This document shows positions 18,273 to 50,544 of a DNA stretch of 63,018 bases, piece by piece (position 1 is the stretch's first letter; every line of letters starts with the position of its first letter). The stretch is from a virus, in the IMG/VR virus record IMGVR_UViG_3300007541_000022, positions 1 to 63,018 of that record. One strand, written 5' to 3'. The position numbers and the translations under genes were made by a program. The notes beneath the pieces were generated by a model. The model searched no databases. It was given only the letters and a program-made list of their open reading frames with translations, and had not been told where the DNA came from.

Positions 18273-18280
18273 TATAAATA
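18273..18280 (-). promoter_or_regulatory. TATTTATA box upstream of tail tube
   Basis: An exact TATTTATA on the minus strand, 36 nt before the tail tube ATG. With the terminator after the gene it makes the tube a probable monocistronic late unit. Confidence 0.4.
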
Positions 18281-19438: not shown

Positions 19439-22400
19439 TTAAATATCTTCAAAAGATGCACCTGTCGGAGTAATCAAAAATTCAATATCAATGAATTCAA
19501 GTGCTCTTGTCGGTTTTAGGTAAATTTTACCTACTAACGTATTAGAGTCTAAATCTTCAGGTGTGTTAGAAACTGTTACTCTAAAGTCTATCAAACCTCT
19601 ATCTCTTCTGATACCATCTAAGATTGGGTTAACTGAATCTAGGAACTCTTGTCTAACTTGTTCGTCATTCTGTTCGAACAACAATCTTACAGCTACTGCT
19701 GAAATTAGTTTACGAGCTTGTAGTAACAATCTTCTTACGTTAATTCTATCAAGTGCAGATTCTCTAACTTGTAGAGTTTTGTTACCCCAAATTACTGTAC
19801 CTACATCAGAGAAGGTTGCAATTGGGTTTAATCTACCTTTATATAATATGTCTCTATCTTCTTGAGTCAACTTCTTACGTGCTTTAACACCATTTACTAA
19901 ACCTCTTGTGTAACCCGCAGATGCGAACCAAGGGAATGCAATGTTATCAGTTAATGCCAAGTTCCTAACAACCTCCGCAGTTGGTGGAATATAGATTTGG
20001 GTATTATTAACTGAATCTCTTGTTAAAATCCATGGGTAATAAGTTGCAGTATAGTTAGAATCGATACCTGTCTCCTCTAAATTATCTACCGCCTCTTCAG
20101 GATATATGAAACTTGTTTCAAAATCCCCTAATGTCGGTGTAAACATTTGATAGTCAGGAGTAGTACAGATATAAATTGAATCAGCTCTATCTGTTTCAAC
20201 CATATCAATTGCTTCCTCAACAAGATTTGAGTTATTTACATAATCAACACCTGGTGTTGTAAATACGTTAATATTTACTGCTTCAGGGTTTGCGAATGTA
20301 TTCTGACCCCACAAATATGCGTAATAGTCAGTATTAGCCCAAGTCAATTGGTTAGGTCCCGTAATTTGTTTGAACGCTCCCCAACCTGTAGAAGTAGGAT
20401 ATGTGATTGATGGTGCTGCACCTGCCCTATAACCAGCCGCACCTAATTGGTATCTGTCACCGTTAGTTCTATATTCTCTATAGATATCCCATCCATCAAA
20501 ACCACCTGCAGGTGCTAATGTGAATTTACGTGCATTTAATTTATAGTATGGACTAGATTCTGTTGGTTCGCTTCTAAATTCTGCAACTCCAACTTCAAAT
20601 GCTGACTGACCTGAAGTGATGTAAGTTGAAGGAATAGTAACCACTGTTGCTCCTGAATCCATATGGAAACCTTTAGTTAAGTACGCCCATGGTGATGATT
20701 CAGTTGCTTCTTGTAGGTTAGTAGGATTTTGTTTTCCTTTATATTGGAAGAAATCAGAATCGACACCAACAGTATTTGAAACACCTAAGTATACTTTTCT
20801 TACTTTATCACCAGCTGCTCTTGTTTCATTATCAGTACCTGTTGCAGAACCAAAAGGTGGGTTATAAATAACCTGACCAGGTGTGTAGTATTCTGTTTTA
20901 TATTCTAAAAATGGTGATTTAACACCTGCATATTGTCTCGTAACGTAACCACGGAAACCACATGGTAATGAGTCAATTGGTGCATCTTCATTCATTTCTA
21001 ACATGATGTATCTTGACTTCAATTCAAAATCACCATTAGCTGTACCTATTTTCTTAGCGACAAAGCTATTTTGATTTGGGTCCATTGTACAGTTAGTGAA
21101 TTTTTCAAGAACTACAGGATTAGCATCATTATCAAAGAAATCACGAACAACCACATCAAATGTTCCATTGTTGAATGAAATATTAATAATGGAAATTTTA
21201 ACTTCTCTGTTTGCCGAGTTACCATCTGATACTGTAATAAATTTAAACATATCGTAAACTTTATTACCACGAAGTTCAGAAACAACATAAGGTGTTTCAG
21301 GTGTTTGGAACTTATCTAAGTACCAACCAATACCGGTATTATCAATATCAGTTCTTGCACCTTCTAATGATAATAATGTAGTATTAAGACCTCTAATCAT
21401 ACCTTTTCTGTAACCTATGTTTAACATAGTGTTGTATTCCTCTTCTAAGAATAATGGAACTTCAGTTCTTGGTTTTGCAAAATTAGACTTACCAAATACC
21501 TTTGAGATATAGTTAGAACTTGACACATTAAATGATGTCTTAAAAGTAAAATCATCTCCACTTGCTGTAACTCCTGAAATTGCAAAAGTAGCAAATGGGT
21601 TTTTAGTGATTGCCGAATAAGAACCTGAACTATCTATAACAACATCAGTTAAACCTGACACACTATAAACTGCTCCATCATCTGATGTGTATGTAGCTAT
21701 ACCTCTTGAACGTAATGTACCGATAACTAAATCGTGGTATTCACTGATAGGTGTACCTGAATAGTTAGTAACATATACTTCAGCAGTTCCTGTGTAATTA
21801 AAACCTGCAGTATTTTCTAACTCAGTTACAATCATACCAAAACCAACACCTTCATAAATGTTGTTAGATTCACTAAACATTGCATAATACCAAGGGTCGT
21901 TAACTGAATCATTTAGAACAATATCTTCAATATGAATATCCTCCACTCCAAAAACATTTGTACTTGCAGTATATGTTGAAGGAGACGCTCCTGTGACACT
22001 AGCAAATGTAGTGGCACTAACCGCTCCCCAAAAATAACCTGTTGTACCTGAAGCCGCTTGATTAACAATTTCACCATATAGATAACCTTCCATATCTCCT
22101 AATATAGTAGATTCACCACCAGTATATGTAGTGTAAGGTGTAGTTATAATGTCTTCGATTGATGCGGGTAAGTTAGTGTAATCCATAACTTCAATACTTG
22201 TTGTAGTTCCTGATGTACCTGAGAAGGTAACAGTAAAAGGACCTGAAACAGAATTAGTAGTTAAACCTGTACTATCTAAATTACCTACAGTTGTGATTGA
22301 CCATGATGGTCCTGCGTCATACCCTGACAAACCAAGTACTCTTGTTACGAATAATTGATTTGATTGTTGTAAATATGCCTTAGCTATATATGCTGCCTCA

Positions 22401-22624
22401 TATTTAGGAATTTGGGTATTCACGAATTTTGTCGGATTTGTACCACCAAAGTATGCTTGGAACTCGTCAAAGTTTGTGATGAAAATCGGCTCAAAAGCTG
22501 GACCCGAAAGTGTTTCACCTACAATACCAAGAGTTGTTACACCAACACTTTGTGCTACAAAACTTAAATCTCTTTCTGATGTGTAAACACCAGGAGAAAC
22601 GAATACTTTGTTTGCTGTCGCCAT
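19439..22624 (-). CDS. gp18: Tail sheath protein (gp18-like)
   Basis: The 1061-aa protein begins with the typical sheath N-terminus (VFVSPGVYTSERDLSF) and GIVGETLSGPAFEP. It ends with the conserved C-terminal sheath domain: SAGYTRGLVNGVKARKKLTQ, WGNKTLQV, NVRRLLLQARKLI and a final strand on EFIDIEFLI. It forms the contractile outer cylinder. T4 gp18 is 659 aa; the extra 400 residues lie in the middle (about 100-450), are Thr/Ser/Gly-rich, and probably form surface-exposed domains. A TATTTATC box is 32 nt upstream. A divergently oriented RHH gene shares the upstream region. Confidence 0.95.
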   Translation of the reverse strand: MATANKVFVSPGVYTSERDLSFVAQSVGVTTLGIVGETLSGPAFEPIFITNFDEFQAYFGGTNPTKFVNTQIPKYEAAYIAKAYLQQSNQLFVTRVLGLSGYDAGPSWSITTVGNLDSTGLTTNSVSGPFTVTFSGTSGTTTSIEVMDYTNLPASIEDIITTPYTTYTGGESTILGDMEGYLYGEIVNQAASGTTGYFWGAVSATTFASVTGASPSTYTASTNVFGVEDIHIEDIVLNDSVNDPWYYAMFSESNNIYEGVGFGMIVTELENTAGFNYTGTAEVYVTNYSGTPISEYHDLVIGTLRSRGIATYTSDDGAVYSVSGLTDVVIDSSGSYSAITKNPFATFAISGVTASGDDFTFKTSFNVSSSNYISKVFGKSNFAKPRTEVPLFLEEEYNTMLNIGYRKGMIRGLNTTLLSLEGARTDIDNTGIGWYLDKFQTPETPYVVSELRGNKVYDMFKFITVSDGNSANREVKISIINISFNNGTFDVVVRDFFDNDANPVVLEKFTNCTMDPNQNSFVAKKIGTANGDFELKSRYIMLEMNEDAPIDSLPCGFRGYVTRQYAGVKSPFLEYKTEYYTPGQVIYNPPFGSATGTDNETRAAGDKVRKVYLGVSNTVGVDSDFFQYKGKQNPTNLQEATESSPWAYLTKGFHMDSGATVVTIPSTYITSGQSAFEVGVAEFRSEPTESSPYYKLNARKFTLAPAGGFDGWDIYREYRTNGDRYQLGAAGYRAGAAPSITYPTSTGWGAFKQITGPNQLTWANTDYYAYLWGQNTFANPEAVNINVFTTPGVDYVNNSNLVEEAIDMVETDRADSIYICTTPDYQMFTPTLGDFETSFIYPEEAVDNLEETGIDSNYTATYYPWILTRDSVNNTQIYIPPTAEVVRNLALTDNIAFPWFASAGYTRGLVNGVKARKKLTQEDRDILYKGRLNPIATFSDVGTVIWGNKTLQVRESALDRINVRRLLLQARKLISAVAVRLLFEQNDEQVRQEFLDSVNPILDGIRRDRGLIDFRVTVSNTPEDLDSNTLVGKIYLKPTRALEFIDIEFLITPTGASFEDI

Positions 22625-22908: not shown

Positions 22909-23949
22909 TTAAAGTAGTCTTGCTTTAACCTTAAGATTTGCGGGGTTATTAATATCAAATTTTAAAACTTCAATCTTAATTAAATCATTTGTGGTAACTT
23001 TAATAACAGGAACATCATCACCTATATAATTGTTGTTAATAAAAACAGAATAGGTATCAACATTATCACTTTCCAATATAGTTAAATCTACTTGGTATCG
23101 ATAAGTTTCAGTTAGTGCTGTTATTCCCTCATTAAAAACAATATTTAAATCAAAGTTATCGGGATTGGCAGGAACCTTACTTGCTCTACGTTTACGATTA
23201 AATGTGTCGACTTCTAAAAAAGTCGCAGTTCTTGAAATTGCTGGTGACACTTCAAATTCTTCTTCATCTAATAAAAATCCCATCATTAAGAATTCATAAT
23301 TCTGAACATAGTATTTTCTTTTTTCAATATCCAAAACTGACTCATCTGATGAATTATTTAATATGATTGGAATATAATGTCCTTTAATTTCAGTATATGC
23401 TTGGCGAGAACTAAAAGTCTGTAAAACTTTTTTATTAAACTCATTTAGATGTCTCATTTTATTACAAAATATTTTTACATTGTAAGTAATATCAACAGGA
23501 ACTGGTTGAGGTATTTTATAAATGTCCATACCTTTTCTTTGTCCGTCCCACGTTGGAACTTTAGCGTAATAAAATTGTTTTCTATTTGGAATTGTGTATT
23601 GTAATGATGGGTTGGTCCCGAATTTTACATCAGGATTTCTAACCGTGGCAACAAATGGAGGTTTTATGTTTTTATCTAAATCTTGAAAATTCCAACTTTC
23701 AGTAAATTGTGCCCAATTCTGTGTTGTAATAATTAAATCTATTGTCGGTATTTTTTTTCCGCTAACAGAGGTTTCTAAATTTTCTTTTACAAAATCTAAC
23801 ATCCCTCGGTCCAAATCCGCATGCAGAATAGACTTAGGTAAATAAGTTCCGTCTTCCTGTATTTGTTCTAATAATTCTTCTCTTCTTTTTAGAAGAATTT
23901 TTTCAGGAGTTAAAGGTAGTTCTTTTTTTATTTTTTTTGGTAATGCCAT
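22909..23949 (-). CDS. Structural protein, possibly gp15-like tail completion protein
   Basis: The 346-aa protein lies upstream of the sheath gene and just after two small connector-region genes. Its middle region (about residues 150-210) has VPVDITYNVKIFCNKMRHLN, then KKVLQTFSSRQAYTEIKGHYIP. This resembles the strand-helix pattern of gp15-type tail sheath stabilisers, which sit on top of the tail and bind the head. It has a basic N-terminal stretch (KKIKKELPL) and a C-terminal beta region (about 270-346). The gp15 assignment rests on pattern and position, not on strong motif identity. Confidence 0.5.
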   Translation of the reverse strand: MALPKKIKKELPLTPEKILLKRREELLEQIQEDGTYLPKSILHADLDRGMLDFVKENLETSVSGKKIPTIDLIITTQNWAQFTESWNFQDLDKNIKPPFVATVRNPDVKFGTNPSLQYTIPNRKQFYYAKVPTWDGQRKGMDIYKIPQPVPVDITYNVKIFCNKMRHLNEFNKKVLQTFSSRQAYTEIKGHYIPIILNNSSDESVLDIEKRKYYVQNYEFLMMGFLLDEEEFEVSPAISRTATFLEVDTFNRKRRASKVPANPDNFDLNIVFNEGITALTETYRYQVDLTILESDNVDTYSVFINNNYIGDDVPVIKVTTNDLIKIEVLKFDINNPANLKVKARLL

Positions 23950-24407
23950 TATTTTGTTATTTCACTAATAAAGAAAACTTTATCTTTTGAGTTAATCATA
24001 TCTACCTCATTAGCAGTATATATTGGTTCTTCGGTATCTTTTCTAACAAAAGAATCATACTTGTATGGATTATAAGTAATTACATTGTTATTTGGTTCCG
24101 ATGGAATTTCTTCACAAGGAAATTCACAATAGTCCATCAAATTACCAATAACAAAGGCGTGGACATTTTTTCTCATTTCATCCCTTACCTTATCTTTACC
24201 GCCCTGTCTAACTCTAAATTCTACATCTGATAATTTTACATAATCAGCATGGACAACAACTATACCTTTATAAGTAACAGAAAAAGTATGTTTGTGAAGA
24301 TTATAATAAACCATAACTCTTTTACCGATGATTGAATCATCTTCATTTTCATTTATTAAACCCATCATAGATTTAATTTGATTCATTTCTTTAATTAATT
24401 TACTCAT
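23949..24407 (-). CDS. Conserved phage protein of unknown function
   Basis: The 152-aa protein has a helical N-terminus (about 1-22, ending INENE), then a small beta domain: VMVYYNLHKHTFSVTYKG, VVHADYVKLSDVEFRVRQGG and RKNVHAFVIG. I associate this pattern with a family of unknown phage proteins; no enzymatic residues stand out. The N-terminus resembles a short cleavable targeting helix, which is speculative. It overlaps both neighbours by 1-4 nt (ATGA-type junctions), so it is translated together with the gp14-like and gp15-like genes. Confidence 0.65.
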   Translation of the reverse strand: MSKLIKEMNQIKSMMGLINENEDDSIIGKRVMVYYNLHKHTFSVTYKGIVVVHADYVKLSDVEFRVRQGGKDKVRDEMRKNVHAFVIGNLMDYCEFPCEEIPSEPNNNVITYNPYKYDSFVRKDTEEPIYTANEVDMINSKDKVFFISEITK

Positions 24408-24965: not shown

Positions 24966-26729
24966 ATGGAAAGTAATATAGACAAATTATCAAAAATCCC
25001 TGAAGTTAGGGCCCAGCGTATTTTGGAAACATACGAAGGGTTCAATAACTACATACTTTCTATTAAGAAAAAAAGTGAAAACCAAAAACATTTTAAACTT
25101 ACAAGGGCTCAAGCGGACTATATTATTTCTTATAATGAGACCGTACCTAAATTGGCAAGAAAGTGGGTTGACTTAGATAGTTACTTTGGCACAAAGATGA
25201 TGGAGGAAAAACTTTTAACTAAAGTTCCTGAAAAAATTTATGTAGAAAAAATATTAGTTGAAAAAGATAAGTCTTTTCACATTTGGGGTAAGGTATTTGA
25301 ATCTGAAAAACTATACGATTTTTGGTTACCCAAAGCGGCGTTAATACCGACACAAAAGGTTAAAAACATTGAAATTGATTACGAAAAATATTCTCATAGA
25401 CCTCCACTATCTCATCAAAAAGAAGCTATTGAGAAATTAGCAGGTCACGATAAATACATTCTTGCTGATGATATGGGTTTAGGAAAAACAACATCAACTG
25501 TAATTGCTGCGTTAGAATCAGGCGCTGAAAAAGTTTTAATTGTTTGTCCCGCATCATTAAAAATAAATTGGATGAGAGAAATTCAAAATTACTCTGACAA
25601 ATCAATTTCAATAGTTGACGGTAAAAAATGGGAGAGTGCTGATTTTGTTATCATTAATTATGACATCCTTAAAAATTTTCACAATACTAAAGATAAAGAA
25701 GAGTCTGTCATTTTACAAGAGGCGTTTGATTTAGTAGTTGTCGATGAAGCACACTATATTCAAAATGTTCAAGCTAAAAGAACAAAATTGATAAATGATA
25801 TAATCAATAAAATTGGTAAGGTGTGGTTACTAACAGGTACTCCAATGACATCAAGACCAATTAATTACTACAATCTACTTAATTTAGTTGAATCCCCTGT
25901 GGCTTATAATTGGATGGCATATGTTATTCGTTATTGTGAGGGTTACCAATTTAATGTTGGTAATAGAAAAGTATGGAACGTAAATGGCTCCTCGAACTTA
26001 TTAGAATTAAGAGATAGGACTAAAACTCATGTTCTTAGAAGATTAAAAGAAGATATATTAGATTTACCTGATAAAATTATAACTCCTGTTTATTTGAGAT
26101 TAAAATCAAAAGAATATGAGGAATTAATGGGCGAATATTATGATTGGATGGAGGATGATAGTGAACAAAAATCATTAACTGTGCAATTTTCAAAATTAAT
26201 GAAAGTTCGTCAAGTGATTGCCGAAAATAAAATAAAAGAAACTTGTGAATTGGCTGAAAATATTATTGAACAAGGTAAAAAAGTTATTATATTCACAAAT
26301 TTTACCGATACCTTAAATCAGATTGCTAATCACTTTGGTAAGATTGCAGTTAAACTTGATGGTAAAATGAGTAAACCTGCACGTCAACAATCTGTTGACC
26401 AATTTCAAGAAAATGACAAAATAAAAGTTTTTGTAGGTAACTTAAAAGCGGCAGGTGTTGGTATTACTCTTACCGCGGCTGAAGCAGTTATAATGAACGA
26501 TTTATCATTTGTTCCTTCAGACCACTCACAAGCGGAAGACCGAGCGTACCGATACGGACAAAAATCAAATGTTTCAGTTCTATACCCAATTTTCGATAAC
26601 ACTATCGAAGGTGTTATCTATGATATTTTGTCTCGAAAAAAGAATATTTTTGAGACGGTTATGGGTGATAATGAAGGGAAGGGAGATATTATGGAAGAAA
26701 TCATTAACGAAATTTCGGTTAGACGATAA
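24966..26729 (+). CDS. SNF2-family DNA helicase/translocase
   Basis: The 587-aa SF2 ATPase has Walker A DDMGLGKTT (168-176), motif Ia IVCPASLKINW, a DEAH box (260-263, DEAHYIQN) and motif III LLTGTPM. The C-terminal helicase domain ends with QAEDRAYRYGQK, a hallmark of the SNF2/SMARCAL1 group. These enzymes translocate on dsDNA and remodel or reverse forks. In a T4-like phage this could fill the role of UvsW in fork regression and recombination. The N-terminal 140 residues are helical and unassigned. The gene starts a rightward unit; 42 nt later the SOD-fusion gene begins behind its own TATTTATA box. Confidence 0.92.
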   Translation: MESNIDKLSKIPEVRAQRILETYEGFNNYILSIKKKSENQKHFKLTRAQADYIISYNETVPKLARKWVDLDSYFGTKMMEEKLLTKVPEKIYVEKILVEKDKSFHIWGKVFESEKLYDFWLPKAALIPTQKVKNIEIDYEKYSHRPPLSHQKEAIEKLAGHDKYILADDMGLGKTTSTVIAALESGAEKVLIVCPASLKINWMREIQNYSDKSISIVDGKKWESADFVIINYDILKNFHNTKDKEESVILQEAFDLVVVDEAHYIQNVQAKRTKLINDIINKIGKVWLLTGTPMTSRPINYYNLLNLVESPVAYNWMAYVIRYCEGYQFNVGNRKVWNVNGSSNLLELRDRTKTHVLRRLKEDILDLPDKIITPVYLRLKSKEYEELMGEYYDWMEDDSEQKSLTVQFSKLMKVRQVIAENKIKETCELAENIIEQGKKVIIFTNFTDTLNQIANHFGKIAVKLDGKMSKPARQQSVDQFQENDKIKVFVGNLKAAGVGITLTAAEAVIMNDLSFVPSDHSQAEDRAYRYGQKSNVSVLYPIFDNTIEGVIYDILSRKKNIFETVMGDNEGKGDIMEEIINEISVRR

Positions 26730-26747: not shown

Positions 26748-26755
26748 TATTTATA
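26748..26755 (+). promoter_or_regulatory. TATTTATA box upstream of the SOD-fusion gene
   Basis: An exact TATTTATA, 16 nt before the ATG of the 521-aa SOD-fusion gene. The gene therefore probably belongs to the late (structural) regulon rather than to the helicase transcript. Confidence 0.4.
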
Positions 26756-26771
26756 TAGAAACACAAGAAAG

Positions 26772-28337
26772 ATGAAGTTCAAAAGATTAAAAGAAAAAAT
26801 CTCACTGATTGAACATAAAATAAACAAAAGCCAAGACGATAAAAATTATATCACAGAATCGTCTATGCAAATTCCTAAAGAAATTTTATTAGAAATGAAA
26901 AAAATTGGTATTGAAAAATTACCATACTCTTATTCTGCCTTAGAAAGATTCATAGATTCAGAAACTATGGATACCCACTATAATAAACACTACAAAGGGT
27001 ATGTAAAAAAACTAAATGACGCTTTATCTAAAAGAAAAGATGGTGATTTAGAGTTAGAACAAATAATTAAAGGTATTTCTCGTTTTAACGTTACGATTAG
27101 AAATAATGCTGGAGGAGCATTTAATCACGCACTTTTTTGGAAAATGTTGTCACCTGAAAAACAAAGAGCTGAAGGTGAAATATATGACAGAATTGTTAAA
27201 GATTTTGAATCATTTTCAAAATTTAAAAAAATATTCAGTAATGAAGCGGTTAAAAATTTTGGTTCAGGGTGGACTTGGTTAATTTTAACTAAGACAGGTA
27301 ATTTAAAAATTATGTCTACACCTAATCAAGATAACCCACTAATGAACGTGGTTAAAGATGGAGGTTTTCCATTACTAGGGTTAGACCTATGGGAACATGC
27401 TTATTATTTAAAATATAGAAATAAAAGAGACGAATACATAAGAAATTTTTGGTCAGTAATTAACTGGAACTTTGTAAACGATTTATATAAGTTAAGAACA
27501 GAAAAGAAAGTTAACGAAGTAAAATTAGTTAAAGATATTATTACTGAAGGTGCGAGTGCGGGATGTAATAGAAATCAAGTACAAACATATAGAAGATTAT
27601 TTAATACCAATCCTGAGATTAAGAAAAGATTTATGTTTACCATAATGGATATTCTTAAAGAAGTTTTTTCAGAATATTGGTATGAAAAAAATCAATATGA
27701 AAAAGGACAAATGTCAGGAGTTTACGACTACGAACAAGAAGGTCGTTCAGTAATTAATAAATTAAACACAAACTATACTGCTTTTTGTACATTAGTTAAT
27801 GACATAAATCAATATTTGAGAAAATATGGGATAGATGCTATTAACTTTAATAACAAAAACCATCACCAACAGGTTCAAGAAGTTGACAGGTTAAACAAAT
27901 ATTTGATTGAATTAAGATATAGAATTTTTGATTCAGAATCATCAACATTTAAAACTCTTATGGCCGGATTAGATAAAACAAATAAATTTGGTGATAAAAG
28001 AGAAGTTGATGCCGTTGAAAATCTTAAAACTATTTTTAATACAGATAAAGTAACTAAAGTAGGAGAATTAGGTGGTGTTGATGATATGATAGGTGGTGTT
28101 GACGCTGTTGTAGAGTTACCTGATGGTGTTAAAACTATGCAAATTAAACCGTTTAACAATACAAAAAATGAAAACGGTAAAGTAACAGTTTATGGTACCG
28201 CAAACGTAAAACCATATAAAACTGACTACTTAGTATTTCACAATAATAATTTAGGAACCTTAGTTTTTAGTAATCACAACACGTTAATTATTGATGGTAG
28301 ATACGTATTTGACGAAGACTCTCAATATAATAAATAA
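26772..28337 (+). CDS. Mn/Fe superoxide dismutase domain fused to a probable PD-(D/E)XK-like domain
   Basis: Residues about 48-240 of this 521-aa protein follow E. coli SodA closely. They include PYSYSALERF, MDTHYNKHYKGYV, NNAGGAFNHALFW, FGSGWTWL, STPNQDNPLM and GLDLWEHAYYLKYRNKR. All four metal ligands are present (His69, His119, Asp205, His209), as are the second-sphere Tyr77 and Gln186. Gly at the position of FeSOD's Gln, together with Gln186, points to the Mn or cambialistic type. The enzyme should convert superoxide to O2 and H2O2. Residues 240-400 are helical and unknown. The end has GGVDAVVELPDG followed by MQIKPF (Asp444, Gln457, Lys459), like a PD-(D/E)XK nuclease core. The charged N-terminal 45 residues could be a packaging signal. 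The neighbour downstream is the neck protein gene. SOD identity is firm; the nuclease call is tentative. Confidence 0.9.
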   Translation: MKFKRLKEKISLIEHKINKSQDDKNYITESSMQIPKEILLEMKKIGIEKLPYSYSALERFIDSETMDTHYNKHYKGYVKKLNDALSKRKDGDLELEQIIKGISRFNVTIRNNAGGAFNHALFWKMLSPEKQRAEGEIYDRIVKDFESFSKFKKIFSNEAVKNFGSGWTWLILTKTGNLKIMSTPNQDNPLMNVVKDGGFPLLGLDLWEHAYYLKYRNKRDEYIRNFWSVINWNFVNDLYKLRTEKKVNEVKLVKDIITEGASAGCNRNQVQTYRRLFNTNPEIKKRFMFTIMDILKEVFSEYWYEKNQYEKGQMSGVYDYEQEGRSVINKLNTNYTAFCTLVNDINQYLRKYGIDAINFNNKNHHQQVQEVDRLNKYLIELRYRIFDSESSTFKTLMAGLDKTNKFGDKREVDAVENLKTIFNTDKVTKVGELGGVDDMIGGVDAVVELPDGVKTMQIKPFNNTKNENGKVTVYGTANVKPYKTDYLVFHNNNLGTLVFSNHNTLIIDGRYVFDEDSQYNK

Positions 28338-28356: not shown

Positions 28357-28364
28357 TATTTATA
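28357..28364 (+). promoter_or_regulatory. TATTTATA box upstream of the neck protein gene
   Basis: An exact TATTTATA, 13 nt before the ATG at 28378. One of the clearest examples of the recurrent element. Confidence 0.45.
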
Positions 28365-28377
28365 AAGAAAACACAAT

Positions 28378-29490
28378 ATGTCTGTAATTAACGAACCACA
28401 AAGAACCAAATTATATACGCGTGTAAAACACCTTTTAGGTGCACCAATCCGTAGTGTAGAAATTGAAGATGAAATGATGGACTCTTTATTAGAGTTATCA
28501 ATACAAGATTATGCTCAATACGTAAATGATTGGTTAATTGAATCTCAATGGACCTCATTATACGGTATGAATTTAGATGAACAATCTGTTACTCGTGCAT
28601 TTACAACTCGTTCTTTAGACTGGGAAACTCAATATACTTATGCATATTCTAAGATTGTTGGTTTACAAGCAGGTGGTGATTACGTTCTTAAAAAAGACTA
28701 TATTGACTTAGTTCCGGGTCAACAAATATATGAAATACCTAAAGGCAGAGAATTAAATGAACTTTTGTGGTTTAGTCGTGCAGAATTAGACGCAGCATTC
28801 TTTGACCCATTTATGGGTGGTTTCGGTGGATTTGGAGGTATCGGTTTAGGAGGAGCCGCAGGATTTTCTCAAATGGGTACTATGGGTAATTATTTCATAA
28901 CGCCAGCATTTGATATCTTACTAAGAATGCAAGATATTAATGTTAAAAGAAGAATTATTTCAGGTGAGTTAACTTATAGAGTTACCGCATTACCTGATGG
29001 TAAAAAGGCGGTTCACCTAATGAACGTACCTGGTGGAAAATTTGATTTTGGTAATATACAACATAACGAATATAAAGTTTGGTATTGGTATTATGATACT
29101 GAAGATAGGGAAGATTGTTTAGCAAAAAACCCTGATGTTGTTAGATTACCTTCGGACATACCTATTGATGAAATGAAGTGGGACGAATTAAATTCACCCG
29201 CACAGACATGGGTTAGAAAATGGTTTGTTTCATATGTAAAAGAAACATTAGGTAGAGTTAGAGGTAAATTTAGTGGAAATTTAAAAACACCAGATTCCGA
29301 ATTACAATTAGAATATGATTCTCTATTAACAGAGGCAAAGGACGAGAAGTCAAAACTTATGGAAGAATTGACTCAGAGGTTAGAAAGATTAAGACCTGAA
29401 AAAATGATGGAGAGAGAGGCTAATATTGCTGAAAATCTTAACAAATCTTTACAATATCGTGCAATGCCTCGCCAGATATATGTAATTTAA
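28378..29490 (+). CDS. gp13: Neck protein (gp13-like head completion protein)
   Basis: The 370-aa protein has the gp13-type layout. An N-terminal helical region (residues 1-50) is followed by a beta section with VPGQQIYEIPKGRELNELLWF (about 113-133). A C-terminal helical part has WVRKWFVSYVKETLGRVRGKFSG, then LLTEAKDEKSKLMEELTQRL. In T4, gp13 and gp14 join the filled head to the tail. A Gly/Phe-rich insert (MGGFGGFGGIGLGG, about 145-160) is unusual. It follows the SOD-fusion gene and precedes a small beta protein with a 2-nt gap. Confidence 0.72.
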   Translation: MSVINEPQRTKLYTRVKHLLGAPIRSVEIEDEMMDSLLELSIQDYAQYVNDWLIESQWTSLYGMNLDEQSVTRAFTTRSLDWETQYTYAYSKIVGLQAGGDYVLKKDYIDLVPGQQIYEIPKGRELNELLWFSRAELDAAFFDPFMGGFGGFGGIGLGGAAGFSQMGTMGNYFITPAFDILLRMQDINVKRRIISGELTYRVTALPDGKKAVHLMNVPGGKFDFGNIQHNEYKVWYWYYDTEDREDCLAKNPDVVRLPSDIPIDEMKWDELNSPAQTWVRKWFVSYVKETLGRVRGKFSGNLKTPDSELQLEYDSLLTEAKDEKSKLMEELTQRLERLRPEKMMEREANIAENLNKSLQYRAMPRQIYVI

Positions 29491-35641: not shown

Positions 35642-35675
35642 GAATGGTTTTTATAGATAAATACTTTGTTCGGAG

Positions 35676-35683
35676 TATTTATA
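35676..35683 (+). promoter_or_regulatory. TATTTATA box upstream of the 35698 gene
   Basis: An exact TATTTATA, 14 nt before the ATG at 35698. It argues for the shorter start of that gene, since the longer reading from 35644 would overlap the box. Confidence 0.4.
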
Positions 35684-35697
35684 GTAAAAAAGAATCT

Positions 35698-36438
35698 ATG
35701 AAATCATATCTTTATAAAACAGAAGAGGGTGCAACTAACGCGGCAAAAGAGTTAGGGTGTAAAGGTTTTCATAAACACAAAAGAAATACTTTCATGCCTT
35801 GCGAATCCCACAAACAGTTTTTAGAAAAAACTAAGCCAAAAAAATCTGAAGGTGAACTTGATGAACTTATTGATTTTGATGGCACTATGTTAAACTCTAA
35901 AGTGCCAATTTTAGACCCACATGTTACCGCTAGAGGCGATGAAACTATGGATAAAACCGTAGCAATGACACGAATAACACAAGACCCTCTTATGAGAGGA
36001 TATAGAGTTTACTATGGAGAGTCAGTAGTTAGAGAAGAGGATATGGCAGACGCATTTGGGTTTGAGGAGACTAAATTTATGGATGCGGAAGAAACTATAG
36101 ATTACTTTATGAAAGAACTTGGGTTTGAAGAAGATGAGGCTGAGGGTAGAGCAGATGAAATGGGTAAAGATGAAGATTTAGATAATAGCTCACCATATAA
36201 GAAAAATAAAAATTTTGTTATGAAGGGTCGTCTAACTGAAAAAGGTAAACCGTTAAGTAAAGAAGAAATATTAAAGATGGCCGAAGATTCATTAGTCACT
36301 AAAAGCGATGAAAAAGATTTAAAATTAAAAAAATCTATTTCACCTATATTAAGTAGAAATATTAAAGCGATTAAAAAATTAGCAGTTATGGATGGTATTT
36401 CTGTTAATGAATTAATTAAAATGTTAAAAAATGAATAA
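35698..36438 (+). CDS. Hypothetical protein with N-terminal Cys/His segment
   Basis: From ATG 35698 the protein is 246 aa. The N-terminus (residues 1-40) is EEGATNAAKELGCKGFHKHK followed by MPCESHKQF. This Cys-His-rich motif is common at the start of unknown phage proteins and may bind metal. The middle is acidic (E/D-rich around 100-160) and the end is a helical, basic region resembling a helix-turn-helix (KKLAVMDGISVNELIKML). It overlaps the next gene by 8 nt and heads a five-gene rightward unit of unknown small proteins. No enzyme motif seen. Confidence 0.65.
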   Translation: MKSYLYKTEEGATNAAKELGCKGFHKHKRNTFMPCESHKQFLEKTKPKKSEGELDELIDFDGTMLNSKVPILDPHVTARGDETMDKTVAMTRITQDPLMRGYRVYYGESVVREEDMADAFGFEETKFMDAEETIDYFMKELGFEEDEAEGRADEMGKDEDLDNSSPYKKNKNFVMKGRLTEKGKPLSKEEILKMAEDSLVTKSDEKDLKLKKSISPILSRNIKAIKKLAVMDGISVNELIKMLKNE

Positions 36439-38208: not shown

Positions 38209-39414
38209 ATGACAAAGATAAGAGTTTTAGTTTTGCCCTCAGATAGAACGGGCGTAGGGAAATTCCGTTCAGTGGAACCCCACATCTTCTTACAAAATAA
38301 GTATCCCGAAGATTTTCACGTAGATATAGATTATGAACCAAAAGTTGACGATGACAACTATTGGAAGAATTATGATATTGTCCATTTTCATAGAACAATC
38401 ACTAAGGACTATGTAAGTACACCTAAACTTATAGAAAAGTTAAAAGGATGGGGAATTGTAACCATTGCCGATATCGATGACTATTGGTTACCAACAATTG
38501 AACACCCCGCACATGCGATGATTACCGCGAATAAGTTACATACGAAAATTATGGACAATCTACGGGCAGCTCAGTATGTGACAACAACTACAAATATTTT
38601 TGCACAAGAGATTAAAAAATTGAATAAAAATGTTTTTGTTCTACCAAACGCTATTAACCCTAACGAACCTCAATTTAAAGAGGAAACAAAACCATCAGAT
38701 AAATTAAGATTTGGGTGGTTAGGTGGTTCATCACATCTACATGATTTAAAACTATTGGATGGAGCATTCACAAGAAATAGTGATATAATAGACCAATTTG
38801 ATTTATATTTGTGTGGATTTGACATTAGAGGTACCGTAACCGAAATAGACCAAAGAACTGGTCAACAAAAACAAAGACCAATTAAACCTGAAGAAACTGT
38901 ATGGGCTCGTTATGAAGAAATTTTTACAAACAATTATAAATTTGTTGATGAGGATTATAAGAAATATTTGATGACCTACAAACAGGAACCATATAATAAT
39001 GAAAATTTTTACCATAGAGTATGGACACAACCTGTTACATCATACGCTAAAAACTACTCCAAATTTGATGTTTCATTAGCACCAATTAAAAATCATATTT
39101 TTAATCGAATGAAATCTCAGTTAAAAGTTATCGAGGCAGGTTTTTATAAAAAAGCGTTAATCGCTTCTGAAGTAGGACCATATACAATTGATTTGAAACA
39201 CGCATTACAAAATGGTAACTTTACCGATGGAAATGCACTTTTAGTTAAAGAACATAGAAATCACGGGGATTGGGCTAAACATATAAAAAAATTGGTCAAA
39301 AACCCTTCAATGGTGCAAGACTTAGGTGAGAGATTATACGAAACAGTTAAAGATACATACGACTTAAATAACGTTACAGATACTAGAGCACAAATTTATA
39401 AATCCTTAATATAA
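38209..39414 (+). CDS. GT-B type glycosyltransferase
   Basis: The 401-aa protein has an N-terminal Rossmann-like start (RVLVLPSDRTGVGKFRSVEP), TIADIDDYWLP, then ATTTNIFAQEI-like strands and FGWLGGSSHLHDL (about 165). Its C-terminal nucleotide-sugar domain has FNRMKSQLKVIEAGFYKKALI (about 300-320). This is the GT4/GT1 layout with the usual E-x7-E-like helix. The acceptor and sugar are not evident. It opens the 13-kb glycan module; the upstream 54 nt have a weak TATACTTTG element but no strong promoter. The following exonuclease gene starts inside its stop codon. Confidence 0.82.
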   Translation: MTKIRVLVLPSDRTGVGKFRSVEPHIFLQNKYPEDFHVDIDYEPKVDDDNYWKNYDIVHFHRTITKDYVSTPKLIEKLKGWGIVTIADIDDYWLPTIEHPAHAMITANKLHTKIMDNLRAAQYVTTTTNIFAQEIKKLNKNVFVLPNAINPNEPQFKEETKPSDKLRFGWLGGSSHLHDLKLLDGAFTRNSDIIDQFDLYLCGFDIRGTVTEIDQRTGQQKQRPIKPEETVWARYEEIFTNNYKFVDEDYKKYLMTYKQEPYNNENFYHRVWTQPVTSYAKNYSKFDVSLAPIKNHIFNRMKSQLKVIEAGFYKKALIASEVGPYTIDLKHALQNGNFTDGNALLVKEHRNHGDWAKHIKKLVKNPSMVQDLGERLYETVKDTYDLNNVTDTRAQIYKSLI

Positions 39415-40115
39415 TGATTAATTTACCGTTAACTAAACTTTTATTTTTTGATTTGGAAACTGTTGGTATTGAAAAAGACTTACCAACACTTAAAAAGAAT
39501 CGTCCTGAACTTGCAAGATTATTTGAAAGTTACTTGGATTGGTTTGTTAAAAAATACCCTGACCAAGAAGGAAAAACTCCAGAAGAGATTTTTGTAAACA
39601 AAGCGGCATTAGTTGCTGAATTTTCAAAAATCATAGTAGCATCTTTTTCGTTTATAACACCAAAAGGAGATGTTCATACACAAACTTTTGCTGAAGATGA
39701 TGAGAGAGTTTTACTAACACAAGTCAGAGATTTATTAAATAAAGTTGAGAAATTAGATTTTTACCTTTGTGGGCATAACATCAAATTTTTCGACATTCCT
39801 ACATTAGGTAAAAGATTTTTAACTAATGGTATTTTACCACCTAAAATATTACCAACATATGAAACTAAACCATGGGAAATTAAAGCTTTAGATACTAAAG
39901 AAGTGTGGCAGTTTGGTAATAATTTTGGAATATCCTCATTGGATTTAATGTGTGTTTCGATGGGGATTGATAGCCCTAAAACTGGTGAAGTTTCAGGTAA
40001 TTTAGTACACGACACATATTGGAACGCAAATGGGTTAACACCAATTGCTGATTACTGCGAAAAAGACGTAAATGTATTAGTAGAACTAATTAAAAAATTA
40101 TATAATTTAAGTTAA
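39414..40115 (+). CDS. DEDD 3'-5' exonuclease (DnaQ/PolB-type)
   Basis: The 233-aa protein has the exonuclease motifs FFDLETVGIE (about residues 11-20, Asp13 and Glu15), LCGHNIKFFDIPTLG (about 118-132) and YCEKDVNVLVELI (about 215-227). This is the DEDDy arrangement of the predicted PolB-like exonuclease family. It could process 3' ends during repair or replication, independently of the polymerase's own exonuclease domain. It begins in the stop of the glycosyltransferase gene and is followed 3 nt later by dUTPase, so a small nucleotide-metabolism pair is embedded in the glycan cluster. Confidence 0.82.
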   Translation: MINLPLTKLLFFDLETVGIEKDLPTLKKNRPELARLFESYLDWFVKKYPDQEGKTPEEIFVNKAALVAEFSKIIVASFSFITPKGDVHTQTFAEDDERVLLTQVRDLLNKVEKLDFYLCGHNIKFFDIPTLGKRFLTNGILPPKILPTYETKPWEIKALDTKEVWQFGNNFGISSLDLMCVSMGIDSPKTGEVSGNLVHDTYWNANGLTPIADYCEKDVNVLVELIKKLYNLS

Positions 40116-40118
40116 AAA

Positions 40119-40718
40119 ATGTTTGGTAAATTAAATGAACTAAGAGACAGTATGTCTCAATTAAGTGAACTACAAGAAAAATTAAGTGGGATGGATATGT
40201 CTGACCCACAATCAATGATGAATTCATTAGGTATTGATTATGAAGCATTAGAAAAGAGCTTCAATGAACAATACCATCAACCTGCAGAAATTGAGTATGT
40301 TTTAAAATCAATTAATCCTGAACCTATGTATCACTACGATAGTGATTCAGGTTTTGATTTGAGGTCAAACGAAAAAGTTACTTTAGAACCTTTTGAAAGA
40401 AAGTTAGTACCAACAGGATTATATATTAACGTACCTGCAAGATGTGAAGTACAAGTTAGACCTAAAAGTGGATTGGCACTTAAAAAAGGACTTACAGTTC
40501 TTAATACACCTGGTACTGTTGATGAAGGTTATACTGGTGAAATAAAAGTAATCCTAATTAATTTAAGTCAAGAAACTCAGATTATTGAGGTAGGGGACAA
40601 GATTGCACAGGCAGTAATATGTCCCGTAGTTCAAGGTAGAGATGTTGTCTTAAAAAGAGTTTTAGAAATTAAAGATAAAGACCGTAACGAAAACGGATTC
40701 GGTTCAACAGGAAATTAA
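40119..40718 (+). CDS. dut: dUTPase with helical N-terminal extension
   Basis: The enzyme converts dUTP to dUMP and pyrophosphate, which keeps uracil out of DNA and feeds dTMP synthesis. All five motifs are present: 1 SGFDLRS (77-83), 2 RPKSGLA (114-120), 3 NTPGTVDEGYTGEI (129-142, catalytic Asp135), 4 GDKIAQA (159-165), 5 NGFGSTG (192-198). Phage and bacterial dUTPases are usually about 150 aa. Here residues 1-55 form an extra helical part (MFGKLNELRDSMSQLSELQE) that resembles the start of YbaB/EbfC nucleoid-associated proteins. It may serve in oligomerisation or targeting. Confidence 0.95.
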   Translation: MFGKLNELRDSMSQLSELQEKLSGMDMSDPQSMMNSLGIDYEALEKSFNEQYHQPAEIEYVLKSINPEPMYHYDSDSGFDLRSNEKVTLEPFERKLVPTGLYINVPARCEVQVRPKSGLALKKGLTVLNTPGTVDEGYTGEIKVILINLSQETQIIEVGDKIAQAVICPVVQGRDVVLKRVLEIKDKDRNENGFGSTGN

Positions 40719-40719
40719 T

Positions 40720-42012
40720 ATGATTACAATAGGATATAGTACAAAAAAGATAGACCCTAACTTTAGGGATTATATTGAAAAGTCTTGTGGTTTACATAAT
40801 GTTGAGGTTATACCTTTTGAAAACCCTGGTACTCACTCATTAACAGAAGCATATAATATTTTATTAGAAAAGGCTTCTAATGATATTGTCGTACTATGTC
40901 ATGATGACATTTATTTTGAAAAGAATAATTGGGGTAATAAAATATTAAAACATTTTAAAAGAAATCCTGATTACGGTATTTTAGGTGTTGCAGGTTCTAA
41001 ATACATGCCAAGAACTGGTATGTGGTGGGAAGTTCAAACAGAAATGATTGGGATTGTTAACCACGAACACGAAGGTAAAAAGTGGACATCAAAGTATAGT
41101 GAAGATATCGGTAATAAGATAAATGATACTATAATTGTTGATGGTCTGTTTATGGTCGTTAATAAACCAAATATTAAAAAGAATTTTAATACTGAGGTAA
41201 AAGGATTTCATTTTTATGATGTTGATTTTTGTTTTAGAAACTTTTTAGAAAATGTTAAAATTGGAGTTTTCTTTGATGTTAGAATCACACACAAGTCTAT
41301 CGGTATGACTAATGAACAATGGGAAAAGAACAGACAGCAATTTGCTGAAACGTATAAAGAAAATCTACCCATTTTATTACCAACAACATTTACCAAGAAA
41401 GAACCTAAAAAGGGTGAACCATTAGTGACTATTTCATTACCAATATATAATCAAGCAAAAAGATTAAATCTAACAATAGAATCAATATTCAAACAAGATT
41501 ACACAAATTTTGAAATAATCATAATTAATGATAATTCAACTGATGAATATTGTTTAATGAAGTTATCAACATTAAAAGACCATCAAAATATAAAGGTTCT
41601 TAATAAAAAAAATGAAGATTCTTTTAAATCACGTATATTATCAATAAATGAAGGTAATGGTGAATTTATATTATCATTAGATGAAGGAGATATGGTACTA
41701 CCAGGATATATTAAGAGTGGGGTCTCAATAATAAAAAATAACCCTAAAATAAGTCCTGTATATTGTGATATTATTCATGTAGGTAAAAAACAAGGTCTTG
41801 AACAAAAACAAAATTGGTCAATTAATTCAATTAATGATGAAACTCTTATCATTAATAATTCAATATTTTCTAAAGAATCCTATGAAAAATCAATGAAAAA
41901 TGATGGTTTATTAGATAAAAATAATGAAAGTATTATTTATAAAAATATGAGTAATATCGGATTATTAGGTAAAAGAATACCTAAAGGATTAATGGTAAAA
42001 TTTAATTATTAA
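40720..42012 (+). CDS. Two-domain GT-A glycosyltransferase
   Basis: The 430-aa protein contains two GT2-like domains. The first (about residues 1-220) has LLEKASNDIVVLCHDDIYFE (metal-binding HDD) and FHFYDVDFCFR. The second (about 225-430) has VTISLPIYNQAKRLNLTIES, IIIINDNSTDE and ILSLDEGDMVLPGY. The second domain's DEGD takes the place of DxD. Such bifunctional enzymes add one or two sugars in sequence. It is followed 1 nt later by the GT29-like gene. Function in synthesis of a surface or virion glycan is inferred. Confidence 0.85.
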   Translation: MITIGYSTKKIDPNFRDYIEKSCGLHNVEVIPFENPGTHSLTEAYNILLEKASNDIVVLCHDDIYFEKNNWGNKILKHFKRNPDYGILGVAGSKYMPRTGMWWEVQTEMIGIVNHEHEGKKWTSKYSEDIGNKINDTIIVDGLFMVVNKPNIKKNFNTEVKGFHFYDVDFCFRNFLENVKIGVFFDVRITHKSIGMTNEQWEKNRQQFAETYKENLPILLPTTFTKKEPKKGEPLVTISLPIYNQAKRLNLTIESIFKQDYTNFEIIIINDNSTDEYCLMKLSTLKDHQNIKVLNKKNEDSFKSRILSINEGNGEFILSLDEGDMVLPGYIKSGVSIIKNNPKISPVYCDIIHVGKKQGLEQKQNWSINSINDETLIINNSIFSKESYEKSMKNDGLLDKNNESIIYKNMSNIGLLGKRIPKGLMVKFNY

Positions 42013-42013
42013 T

Positions 42014-42715
42014 ATGAAATTATATTCTACAATAAATGAATATATACAAAAAGAAAATAAGTCATATTTGAAGTATAAAGTAATCGACTCAAATATTACC
42101 TTATTTGAAGGTACTAAAGATGAATGTTTAAAATATATTGACTCAAAAGTTAATAAAGATACTAAGAAAGTTATAATTGTTGGTCCTTCACCTCACCTCA
42201 TTAATTTAAATTTAGGAGAAAAAATAGATAGTTATGATGTTGTTGTTAGAATGAATAACTCATACACAATAAGTAACCATAAAGACTTTGGTAGTAGGAC
42301 TGATTATTTATTTTTAAATCAAATGTGGGTTAGAAATAATAAATCATTAATACCCGATTTAAAAAGAAAATTCAAAGAAAATTTAATAATAAAACAAGAA
42401 AATTTAAATTCAAAGGCACCAAAAGGGTATAACTTAAATACTAATTGGAGTTCTAATATGGGGGTATTGACCATTTTACATTTAATTAATGAAGGTTATA
42501 AAAATATATCTTTAACAGGTTTTTCTTTTTATCAAAATCATCCATTTTATGTTGATGAGCATTTCCATAACCAAAAAGGTATGGTTTTAAAAGGAGAGAG
42601 TCACCCACAAAAAAAAACAATTAAAGAAATTAATGAATTTATTAAATTAAATCATATCCATTTAATGGATGATACCAAATATTGGTTTGATTTAACTAAA
42701 GAAAAATATCTATAA
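42014..42715 (+). CDS. GT29-like sialyltransferase
   Basis: The 233-aa protein carries the L-type sialylmotif: KVIIVGPSPHL (about residues 52-61), IDSYDVVVRMNNSYTI (71-86) and DFGSRTDYLFLNQ (91-103). The S-type motif follows: WSSNMGVLTILHLINEGYKN (145-164) and SLTGFSFYQNH. These are the hallmarks of family GT29 sialyltransferases, which transfer Neu5Ac from CMP-Neu5Ac to glycans. It stands beside a sulfotransferase and is 1-3 kb from NeuB and a CMP-sugar synthetase, so donor and transferase are encoded together. The sugar may be another nonulosonate rather than Neu5Ac. The N-terminal 50 residues are helical and unassigned. Confidence 0.72.
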   Translation: MKLYSTINEYIQKENKSYLKYKVIDSNITLFEGTKDECLKYIDSKVNKDTKKVIIVGPSPHLINLNLGEKIDSYDVVVRMNNSYTISNHKDFGSRTDYLFLNQMWVRNNKSLIPDLKRKFKENLIIKQENLNSKAPKGYNLNTNWSSNMGVLTILHLINEGYKNISLTGFSFYQNHPFYVDEHFHNQKGMVLKGESHPQKKTIKEINEFIKLNHIHLMDDTKYWFDLTKEKYL

Positions 42716-42716
42716 T

Positions 42717-43367
42717 ATGGCTATTTTGAGACCCAACCACCCAATGTTCTTAAGTGATGGACCAATTTTTATACATATTGGTAAATGTGGAGGTAGCACT
42801 TTAAGAACCGTTATTAAACACAAATATGAAATTCATTTACAAAGAGTAAAATTTTCTAATGATGACAAATATTTTATATCACTCAGAAACCCTATTGACC
42901 GTTTTATTTCCGCCTTTTACTATAGAAAAAATGAATTCTTATCTGGTCGTGGGGGTAAATATATCTTAAATGAAAGTAAAATTTTTAATTCAGTAGACAA
43001 TGTTTATGATTTTACCGAAAACTTATTTGATTATAATATAGAAAATGTTAATGGTGTTGCCCATATCGGCGAGTCAATTTCATATTACTTATCACCAATC
43101 ATTACTAAATTAAATAAAAAAAATGTGACTAATATTTTTACGACACATTTTTTAGATGAAGAATTGAAAAAGGTTGTCCCTGACTATAAAAGAAAGGTAT
43201 TAAAAGATAACTCAAAAAATAAACCAAATAAAAAACTTAGTGAATTATCAATTAAAAATTTAAATAAGTTTTTAGAAAAAGATTTTAAAATAATTGATGA
43301 GCTATATAAAAAGGATTTATTAACTGATAAACAATATGAAATTTTGAGTAAGAAAGACGGTTGGTAA
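42717..43367 (+). CDS. PAPS-dependent carbohydrate sulfotransferase
   Basis: The 216-aa protein has the two PAPS-binding signatures: the 5' phosphosulfate loop IFIHIGKCGGSTLRT (17-31) and the 3' phosphate element FISLRNPIDRFISAFYY (53-69). These are typical of sulfotransferase family 2-like enzymes that act on sugars. It would transfer sulfate to a hydroxyl of a glycan, with PAPS from the host. It is short but keeps the core. It lies directly after the GT29-like gene (1-nt gap) and converges with the HAD gene (3-nt gap). Confidence 0.82.
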   Translation: MAILRPNHPMFLSDGPIFIHIGKCGGSTLRTVIKHKYEIHLQRVKFSNDDKYFISLRNPIDRFISAFYYRKNEFLSGRGGKYILNESKIFNSVDNVYDFTENLFDYNIENVNGVAHIGESISYYLSPIITKLNKKNVTNIFTTHFLDEELKKVVPDYKRKVLKDNSKNKPNKKLSELSIKNLNKFLEKDFKIIDELYKKDLLTDKQYEILSKKDGW

Positions 43368-43370
43368 AAG

Positions 43371-43664
43371 TTAAAAAAATACAGTATCACTAATACCCTT
43401 ATCATCAATATAAACATCAGCATATTTCTTTATACCGACTCTTAACTCATCATATGAAACCCCCCATGAATCTAATTGATTTTTAGTTAAATCAAACCAA
43501 TTAATTCCGGTGACACTACCTCTGGCAGTGTCGATAATAATACGGTTACCTTCTGAATGTAATTTATTTACCCTGTCTATTCTATCTTGTATTGGTGTTG
43601 AATTTTTGTAATCACCATCCACTGTTATACACAAAGTATTGTCTAAATCAAAACAGTATATCAT
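43371..43664 (-). CDS. Small HAD-like phosphatase of glycan clusters
   Basis: The 97-aa protein has the minimal HAD fold: FDLDNTLC (residues 5-12, Asp nucleophile and acid), IIIDTARG (42-49) and a C-terminal YADVYIDDKG. Such single-domain phosphatases, often annotated as capsule biosynthesis phosphatases, are common in sugar-nucleotide loci and resemble KdsC-type enzymes. Here it overlaps the 3' end of neuB by 4 nt, so it may dephosphorylate the NeuB product or another sugar phosphate. It lacks a cap domain. It runs convergent with the sulfotransferase gene. Confidence 0.78.
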   Translation of the reverse strand: MIYCFDLDNTLCITVDGDYKNSTPIQDRIDRVNKLHSEGNRIIIDTARGSVTGINWFDLTKNQLDSWGVSYDELRVGIKKYADVYIDDKGISDTVFF

Positions 43665-44515
43665 TTTAAATCACCTCTTAATTTTCTTAATGCTGGCATT
43701 TCAGAATCTAATACATACTTTTCTGAAGTACCCATAGCATTTTCAACTTGATTAATATACTTAATAATTTTCTTTACACCATCTAACTCTAAAGAACCTA
43801 TGTGGTCAGTACCTTTCATAGTTCTATCCAAAGTAAAATGTCTTTCGATAATTTTTGCCCCCATAACATATGCAGCAATATCAGGTGCAATACTCATATG
43901 ATGACCACTTAAACCAAAACCTTTAATTATTTTACCATATTTTTGTTTATATGTGTTAATTACATTTAGATTAATATCCGTATCTGCGCAAGGATATGAG
44001 CTTGTACACTGCATCAAATATTTATCAACATCCGAAAAAATCTCAATAGCATCATCCACTTCTTCCATAGTTGACATACCTGTAGAAATTATAGTTGGGA
44101 CACCTTTTTTAGACGCTTTAATCAATAAGTCTTTATCTGCCATTCTTTGAGATGCGATTTTTAAATATTTTACATTACACTCATCCACCAAAAAGTTTAA
44201 GCTGTTCTCGTCAGTAAAACTTGAAATGAAATCAAATCCTCTGTCTTCAGAATACTTTTTTAAATTAATAAAATGTTCATGACTTAATTCTAGTGCCTTT
44301 CTATGTTCGTAATAAGTTTTACCAAATGAATTTGGGTTGTTATATAACATGTTTTTTTGTTCCTCACTCAAACATGTTTCAATATCTCTTTTAGCCGTTT
44401 TAATTGCTGATACACCAGTACCGACTAATTGGTCAACCATTTTTTTCGCAATGTTTATATCACCTTGGTGATTTTGACCGATTTCGGCAATAAAGTATAA
44501 TTTATTAGTATCCAT
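43661..44515 (-). CDS. neuB: NeuB-like nonulosonate synthase
   Basis: The protein is a TIM-barrel synthase that condenses phosphoenolpyruvate with an N-acetylhexosamine to form a nonulosonic acid. Signatures are FIAEIGQNHQGDINIA (8-23), TAKRDIET, KIASQRMAD, TIISTGMSTMEE, CTSSYPC and ERHFTLDRTMKGTDHIGSLE (about 228-247). At 284 aa it ends after the barrel and lacks the C-terminal SAF (antifreeze-like) domain of the usual 340-350-aa enzymes, which normally completes the active site of the partner subunit. Whether it makes Neu5Ac, legionaminate or another sugar cannot be told. It overlaps the CMP-synthetase gene by 1 nt. Confidence 0.88.
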   Translation of the reverse strand: MDTNKLYFIAEIGQNHQGDINIAKKMVDQLVGTGVSAIKTAKRDIETCLSEEQKNMLYNNPNSFGKTYYEHRKALELSHEHFINLKKYSEDRGFDFISSFTDENSLNFLVDECNVKYLKIASQRMADKDLLIKASKKGVPTIISTGMSTMEEVDDAIEIFSDVDKYLMQCTSSYPCADTDINLNVINTYKQKYGKIIKGFGLSGHHMSIAPDIAAYVMGAKIIERHFTLDRTMKGTDHIGSLELDGVKKIIKYINQVENAMGTSEKYVLDSEMPALRKLRGDLK

Positions 44516-45824: not shown

Positions 45825-45916
45825 ATATCGTTTTTCTTTATTAAATAATAATTTTTTTTATCTTGAAATAAACACATAGAGTAAAATACATAAAATTAAA
45901 TCAATAGTAAAACATT

Positions 45917-47786: not shown

Positions 47787-47804
47787 TTAAACAATTAAAA
47801 TTAA

Positions 47805-49470: not shown

Positions 49471-49474
49471 AAAT

Positions 49475-50539: not shown

Positions 50540-50544
50540 TTAGT

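Follow-up and report, generated by a model that had tools for sequence, protein, structure and literature searches.

Organization of the locus

The window analysed here is the whole 63,018-nucleotide stretch of viral DNA in IMG/VR record IMGVR_UViG_3300007541_000022. Open reading frame analysis revealed a frame on the plus strand, at 26772-28337, which begins with ATG, contains no internal stops and encodes a protein of 521 residues. Its N-terminal leader (residues 1-41; 26772-26894, +) is predicted to form a helix ending ILLE41/M, the slash marking the putative point of cleavage here and below, and is a predicted capsid-targeting propeptide with the first of three predicted prohead-protease sites. 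A superoxide dismutase (SOD) domain of predicted Mn type (residues 48-237; 26913-27482, +), assigned from its Pfam and PDB matches and its invariant residues, is followed by a linker (residues 242-262; 27495-27557, +) that carries the other two predicted sites, KVNE249/V and IITE259/G. The C-terminal half comprises a helical region (residues 260-391; 27549-27944, +), part of an AlphaFold2 model of residues 260-519 with a pLDDT of about 90, and a PD-(D/E)XK-like nuclease core (residues 392-519; 27945-28328, +) identified from structure comparison and from residues E411, D444, Q457 and K459. The initial annotation had described a phage SOD fused to a PD-(D/E)XK-like end, and both parts were indeed recognised within the single 521-residue frame.

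The fusion gene is preceded by a UvsW-like SNF2 helicase gene (24966-26729, +; PHROG 62, E 4e-111; Pfam SNF2-rel_dom) and followed by a neck or head-tail adaptor gene (28378-29490, +). The latter matched PHROG 211, head-tail adaptor Ad2 (E 4e-10), in agreement with the neck gene that had been suggested next door. A major capsid protein of Gp23 type is represented by its C-terminal part at the window edge (62710-63018, -; PF07068 at 62746-63000, E 2e-24) and identifies the contig as that of a T4-like phage. The capsid protein was nearest to those of Microcystis phage Mel-JY01, an uncultured phage and Flavobacterium phage immuto, and the hosts are, on such sequence comparisons, likely to be Bacteroidota. 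Elsewhere in the window, the tail sheath protein (19439-22624, -) has 1061 residues and far exceeds the 496-position PHROG profile that it matched, and a 264-residue protein (35644-36438, +) begins with DUF3721 (PF12518, E 3e-10). A glycosyltransferase cluster at 38209-51351 lies between structural genes; inspection by eye only suggested sugar-nucleotide genes in it, resembling those for GDP-mannose dehydratase and GDP-fucose synthase, and surface or DNA glycosylation is a possible function. No tRNAs were found in the window.

A scan of viral contigs returned at least 599 related stretches, and 80 loci were kept that shared 53-85% identity along virtually the entire length. With a second scan that started from the nuclease end, the complete fusion was found in at least 160 IMG/VR loci, which overlap in contigs and collapse to 88 distinct sequences. 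The same fusion is thus present in other phage genomes, and this recurrence excludes a chance or assembly join. Gene order was strict, with short contigs showing only part of it: sheath, o346 and o171 on one strand, helicase, fusion, neck and o110 on the other, and then PolB. The helicase gene adjoined the fusion gene in all 80 loci kept among the matches listed, and the neck gene came next downstream wherever the locus extended far enough.

A late-type box had also been reported at this locus. We located a TATTTATA box, a candidate late-promoter element, at 26748-26755 (+), starting 24 bases before the ATG of the fusion gene, and inspection of the sequence showed another upstream of the neck gene (28357-28364, +). 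The shorter motif TATTTAT occurred between -80 and +45 of the start in 86 of the 88 distinct relatives, whereas shuffled sequences would give 4.6, and its antisense form was present in the same interval in 8 relatives. TATTTAT also precedes several virion genes of the window. The late box of T4 is TATAAATA, of which TATTTATA is the reverse complement, and the box described here is therefore in inverse orientation to that of T4. Across the window, TATAAATA and TATTTATA were no more frequent than chance, and only their location upstream of particular genes is informative. In the sense orientation, TATTTATA was seen 13-44 bases ahead of eight gene starts, including those of the tube, neck and fusion genes; examples are at 18273, 24951, 26748, 28357, 33225, 52123, 56245 and 62646. 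The fusion gene is plausibly expressed late.

The superoxide dismutase domain

Both Pfam domains of the Fe/Mn SOD family were detected far above their curated cut-offs, Sod_Fe_N (PF00081) at residues 48-127 (E 2e-22; 79.8 bits, cut-off 27) and Sod_Fe_C (PF02777) at residues 134-237 (E 8e-39; 132.2 bits, cut-off 20.9). The closest PDB structure was the Clostridioides SOD 3tjt, which matched residues 43-240 with an E of 3e-57. These results bear out the complete SodA-like domain proposed earlier, and the metal ligands had been named correctly: H69, H119, D205 and H209 were invariant in all 89 aligned sequences (the window protein and its 88 distinct relatives), as were H73, Y77, G115, Q186, E208 and Y212. 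We take the latter to include the counterparts of the active-site Tyr34, His30, Glu170 and Gln of E. coli SodA (E. coli numbering). Gln186 and Gly115 presumably mark the Mn type, by comparison with E. coli SodA, and from these two positions only we infer an Mn-type enzyme. The fusion protein thus has in common with the family (3tjt, E. coli SodA) the whole domain, the four ligands, the second-shell residues and the Mn-type Gln position. Unlike the cellular SODs checked, which are mostly stand-alone and of 201-310 codons, it has in addition a leader, protease-like sites in the linker and a nuclease.

The SOD might be an ordinary auxiliary metabolic enzyme derived from a Bacteroidota host, its fusion being incidental and of no functional meaning. 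The nearest cellular SODs, at 46-54% identity, were mostly from Bacteroidota and their relatives, and other phages encode stand-alone SODs. Fe/Mn SODs of jumbo phages (PA5oct/Callisto and Vibrio phage 2.275.O) are likewise phage-encoded, but they have 183-190 residues, are 26-30% identical to the domain described here, contain no fusion and lie next to clpS/clpX or topoisomerase genes. An incidental origin is nevertheless very improbable, since the fusion was kept in 160 of the 160 full-length loci listed; no SOD-free close relative was found among these loci, in a list where the best matches came first and distant ones may be missed.

The C-terminal half and its nuclease core

Residues 260-519 predicted alone gave a confident model (pLDDT 90.8, pTM 0.82). 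When the last 117 residues were compared with solved structures, VIA-align matched 99 of them to Archaeoglobus Hjc (Z 8.5, rmsd 3.2); the Z scores to Hjc structures were 8.5, 8.1 and 7.9, and many PD-(D/E)XK restriction enzymes ranked after them. I-Ssp6803I and Hjc were also the top matches in Foldseek, which was weaker when taken alone (best E 0.006, to I-Ssp6803I). The C-terminal half is therefore predicted to have a PD-(D/E)XK core fold, as read from a model with moderate comparison scores. E411, D444, Q457 and K459 were invariant in 89 of 89 sequences and are likely to form the active-site set acid, acid, (D/E/Q)-x-K. The initial annotation had pointed to a D-x-x-x-E...Q-x-K motif near residue 450. 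Its D444, Q457 and K459 were confirmed, but E448 is unconserved in the alignment and was rejected as a catalytic residue; the conserved acidic helix residue is E411.

The predicted core fold and the E, D and Q-x-K residues are common to archaeal Hjc and I-Ssp6803I, but identity to these is only about 10-17% and the fusion protein has in addition a helical region N-terminal to the core; on the modelled structure, Hjc may be regarded as a fold neighbour only. The same E, D, Q-x-K set is present in TnsA of Tn7, which offers a lead. At the sequence level, the C-terminal part had no significant match in Pfam, PHROGs, NCBIfam, PADLOC or PDB, so the nuclease can be placed at superfamily level only. 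No convincing match was obtained with tblastn over 50,697 phage records, nor did the nuclease paralogues match in the phage records, and no bacterial genome matched the C-terminal profile in a search, so that neither a prophage nor a host copy is indicated. Among the predicted viral structures of a library, the best matches were a 501-residue "superoxide dismutase" of an uncultured phage, which is the same kind of protein deposited without a described function, and a 1113-residue uncharacterised marine phage protein.

The helical region and the nuclease were found together again in paralogues. Some freshwater relatives (L219-L228, e.g. L219:3001-4473) encode a PF25735 (Phage_L5_gp82) protein fused to a helical-nuclease module of this kind, the join being formed by KIGITEQVSE or a similar stretch. 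Two frames among the matches listed were without the SOD, namely one such PF25735-nuclease fusion (L067) and a nuclease adjoining a gp21-type protease gene (L082:2360-3313, +), which has the leader MKITISE/GQYKILSE. Two further helical-nuclease paralogues were found in G003 (117909-118982 and 130603-131607, both -), one with the leader MKDIKLVNLLKE/N. These arrangements suggest that the module may be a cargo with changeable partners. In the window itself, a PF25735 protein stands alone at 23949-24407 (-), with the leader IKSMMGLINE/N.

These observations bear on a possible role as a virion neck or head-completion protein, in which the nuclease-like end would be structural or would trim DNA ends at the portal, and the SOD would be a passenger or a metal-binding structural element. 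The strict place directly before the neck gene and the late-type box ahead of both genes fit such a role. We consider it improbable: a purely structural protein would have no need of the catalytic residues of either enzyme, yet every one of them is invariant, and the nuclease module is also found with different partners at other places in these genomes.

Cleavage-like motifs in the leader and linker

Conservation and model confidence are both lowest in the leader and in the linker between SOD and nuclease, with pLDDT below 50 mainly at leader residues 20-51 and linker residues 244-259, and yet these segments contain invariant glutamates. Among 30 non-redundant sequences, E41, E249 and E259 were conserved to 100%, with L or I at P3 of sites 41 and 259 and L, I or V at P3 of site 249, while identity around sites 249 and 259 was 0.48-0.54. 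Across all 89 sequences E249 and E259 were invariant, P3 always being L, I or V at the former and I or L at the latter. E41 with L or I at P3 was present in 75 of the 76 sequences that aligned there. Eleven of the 13 sequences without an aligned E41 had a rebuilt leader that still held [I]xE, at sites such as DIVTE/N, KINE/N, IIQE/Q, TITE/Q, PIQE/Q and TIQE/A; L134, L136, L138, L142, L145 and L147 are among those that kept a shifted IxE. In L110 and L111 (3951-5390) the frame seems to begin MENIGIEK, without a leader, which may reflect a frameshift, an upstream start or true loss. The 88 relatives share ancestry, so that their invariance does not amount to 88 independent observations and the counts are descriptive rather than probabilities.

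The density of [LI]xE per 100 residues was 8.5 in the leader and 9.1 in the linker, about tenfold higher than in the folded domains (SOD 0.84, helical region 1.36, nuclease 0.60). Leader and linker exceeded all 500 shuffles, and the helical part was slightly above expectation (3 of 500 shuffles reached it).

This motif corresponds to the specificity of the T4 prohead protease gp21, L/I-X-E with cleavage following the Glu; internal proteins of T4 reach the core by means of N-terminal capsid-targeting sequences that are later removed (PMC9026906). A gp21-type Peptidase_S77 (PF03420) was present in 7 of 15 relatives' records, all of them partial or linear, and the Gp23 capsid protein (PF07068) in 9 of the 15; no gp21 gene was found within the 63-kb window, which is a partial contig. 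The capsid protein of the relatives begins MGALLESGLVGNIGLKHLK...ASHLINE/A...GSFETVVFPIVRRVF and thus has HLINE/A in its N-terminal region; LINE/A lies at the position of the T4 gp23 cleavage site. The leader of the fusion protein ends at L/I-x-E as do those of T4-type processed internal head proteins, a motif so short that it is necessary and not sufficient. To our knowledge this leader has no resemblance to any known T4 capsid-targeting sequence.

Other proteins of the window have similar leaders, for example KKIIRLTESDLENIVRRVITE/Q at 61130-62629 (-). An N-terminal tag of the type KKIIRLTESDLxxIVRRVIxE/Q, ending in [LI]xE, recurs on otherwise different proteins, both in the window (61130-62629, -; 57731-57988, +) and in G002 (110998-112512; 135110-136366) and G003 (48653-48907; 129473-130210; 120793-121209). 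Within the first 30 residues a tag-like pattern was found in 17 of 406 frames, compared with 0-1 in mid or C-terminal controls, and the tag may serve these phages as a capsid-targeting sequence.

A precursor cut in the prohead, or an uncut enzyme

We propose that the fusion protein is a late, head-targeted polyprotein that is cut in the prohead into an MnSOD and a nuclease, both delivered with the DNA, and assign this reading a probability of about 0.6. The leader (residues 1-41) would take the precursor into the prohead core, where a gp21-type protease would cleave on the C-terminal side of Glu41 and of Glu249, Glu259 or both. The predicted products, an MnSOD of about residues 42-249 and a helical and PD-(D/E)XK nuclease protein of about residues 260-521, would both be retained in the capsid and pass into the cell together with the DNA. 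As infection begins, the SOD might then clear superoxide, or it might protect the packaged DNA; the substrate of the nuclease may be host DNA, DNA with branches or a target in host defence. A more specific version, in which both virion-borne enzymes are injected before any phage gene is expressed and the nuclease is an exchangeable cargo, has in our estimate slightly less than an even chance.

Several lines of evidence point to a polyprotein. The three glutamates lie at domain borders and are conserved amid flanks of about 50% conservation, [LI]xE is enriched in leader and linker above all shuffles, a shifted IxE is retained in rebuilt leaders, and the model is of low confidence mainly in these same two segments. 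The motif is the published one of T4 gp21, capsid-targeting sequences carry internal proteins of T4 into the core, and the relatives have gp21 and gp23 genes and HLINE/A in their capsid protein. The nuclease module occurs on other carriers with similar leaders or joins, once beside gp21, and the late-type box and the neck-gene synteny also fit this reading. The earlier suggestion that the product may be packaged is strongly, if indirectly, supported by the conserved T4-type prohead-protease motifs at leader and linker. Against this reading, [LI]xE is short and the conserved glutamates could be structural, the gene sits with neck and replication genes outside the head cluster, and L110 and L111 appear to be leaderless.

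The protein might instead act uncut, as a bifunctional enzyme in the infected cell, with the SOD shielding replicating phage and host against superoxide, the nuclease processing DNA (for example resolving branches in packaging, like T4 gp49) and the linker merely flexible. The nearest folds of the nuclease are indeed Hjc Holliday-junction resolvases, and since six relatives gave no match to endonuclease VII (PF02945) that passed the cut-off, a resolvase role could be vacant. The replication and neck genes next to it and the existence of stand-alone phage SODs, for which we know of no packaging signal, are also in keeping with an uncut enzyme. A flexible linker, however, needs no invariant Glu, and both the invariant [LIV]xE in a variable linker and the [I]xE kept in rebuilt leaders would be left unexplained; we therefore think an uncut enzyme unlikely. 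The earlier suggestion that a single molecule combines peroxide or metal chemistry with nuclease action is likewise not favoured, as the fusion looks like a precursor to be cut.

Relation to known systems and biological meaning

The closest parallel to the proposed polyprotein is provided by the T4 internal head proteins (IPI-IPIII, Alt), from which gp21 removes a leader at L/I-x-E, as predicted here, and which are delivered with the DNA, again only a prediction for the fusion protein. Release of two enzymes from one precursor is predicted for the fusion protein only, and we know of no sequence similarity between it and the T4 proteins. Polyvalent proteins also combine disparate activities in one phage polypeptide and are predicted to be injected (PMC5512222). 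The fusion protein similarly joins two disparate enzymatic domains and may be injected, but its parts would be separated by the prohead protease in place of an internal peptidase domain; superoxide is absent from the text of that study (PMC5512222).

SODs, PD-(D/E)XK nucleases, T4 head processing and injected multi-enzyme proteins are each already known. In a search of the open-access literature we found no report of phage SOD fusions or of phage-encoded SOD. Nor did the papers searched describe the combination of these known elements in one protein, the strictness with which an uncultured T4-like clade conserves it, or its two processing sites in the linker.

If the proposed polyprotein is correct, phages of abundant aquatic and probably Bacteroidota hosts would carry an antioxidant enzyme in the particle. 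That would suggest that superoxide is a threat at DNA entry or part of the host response to infection, and would tie redox stress to phage attack. T4 head processing would extend from the removal of targeting peptides to the release of two enzymes from one precursor, and the motifs would provide a sequence rule for finding more head-borne cargo in uncultured T4-like phages.
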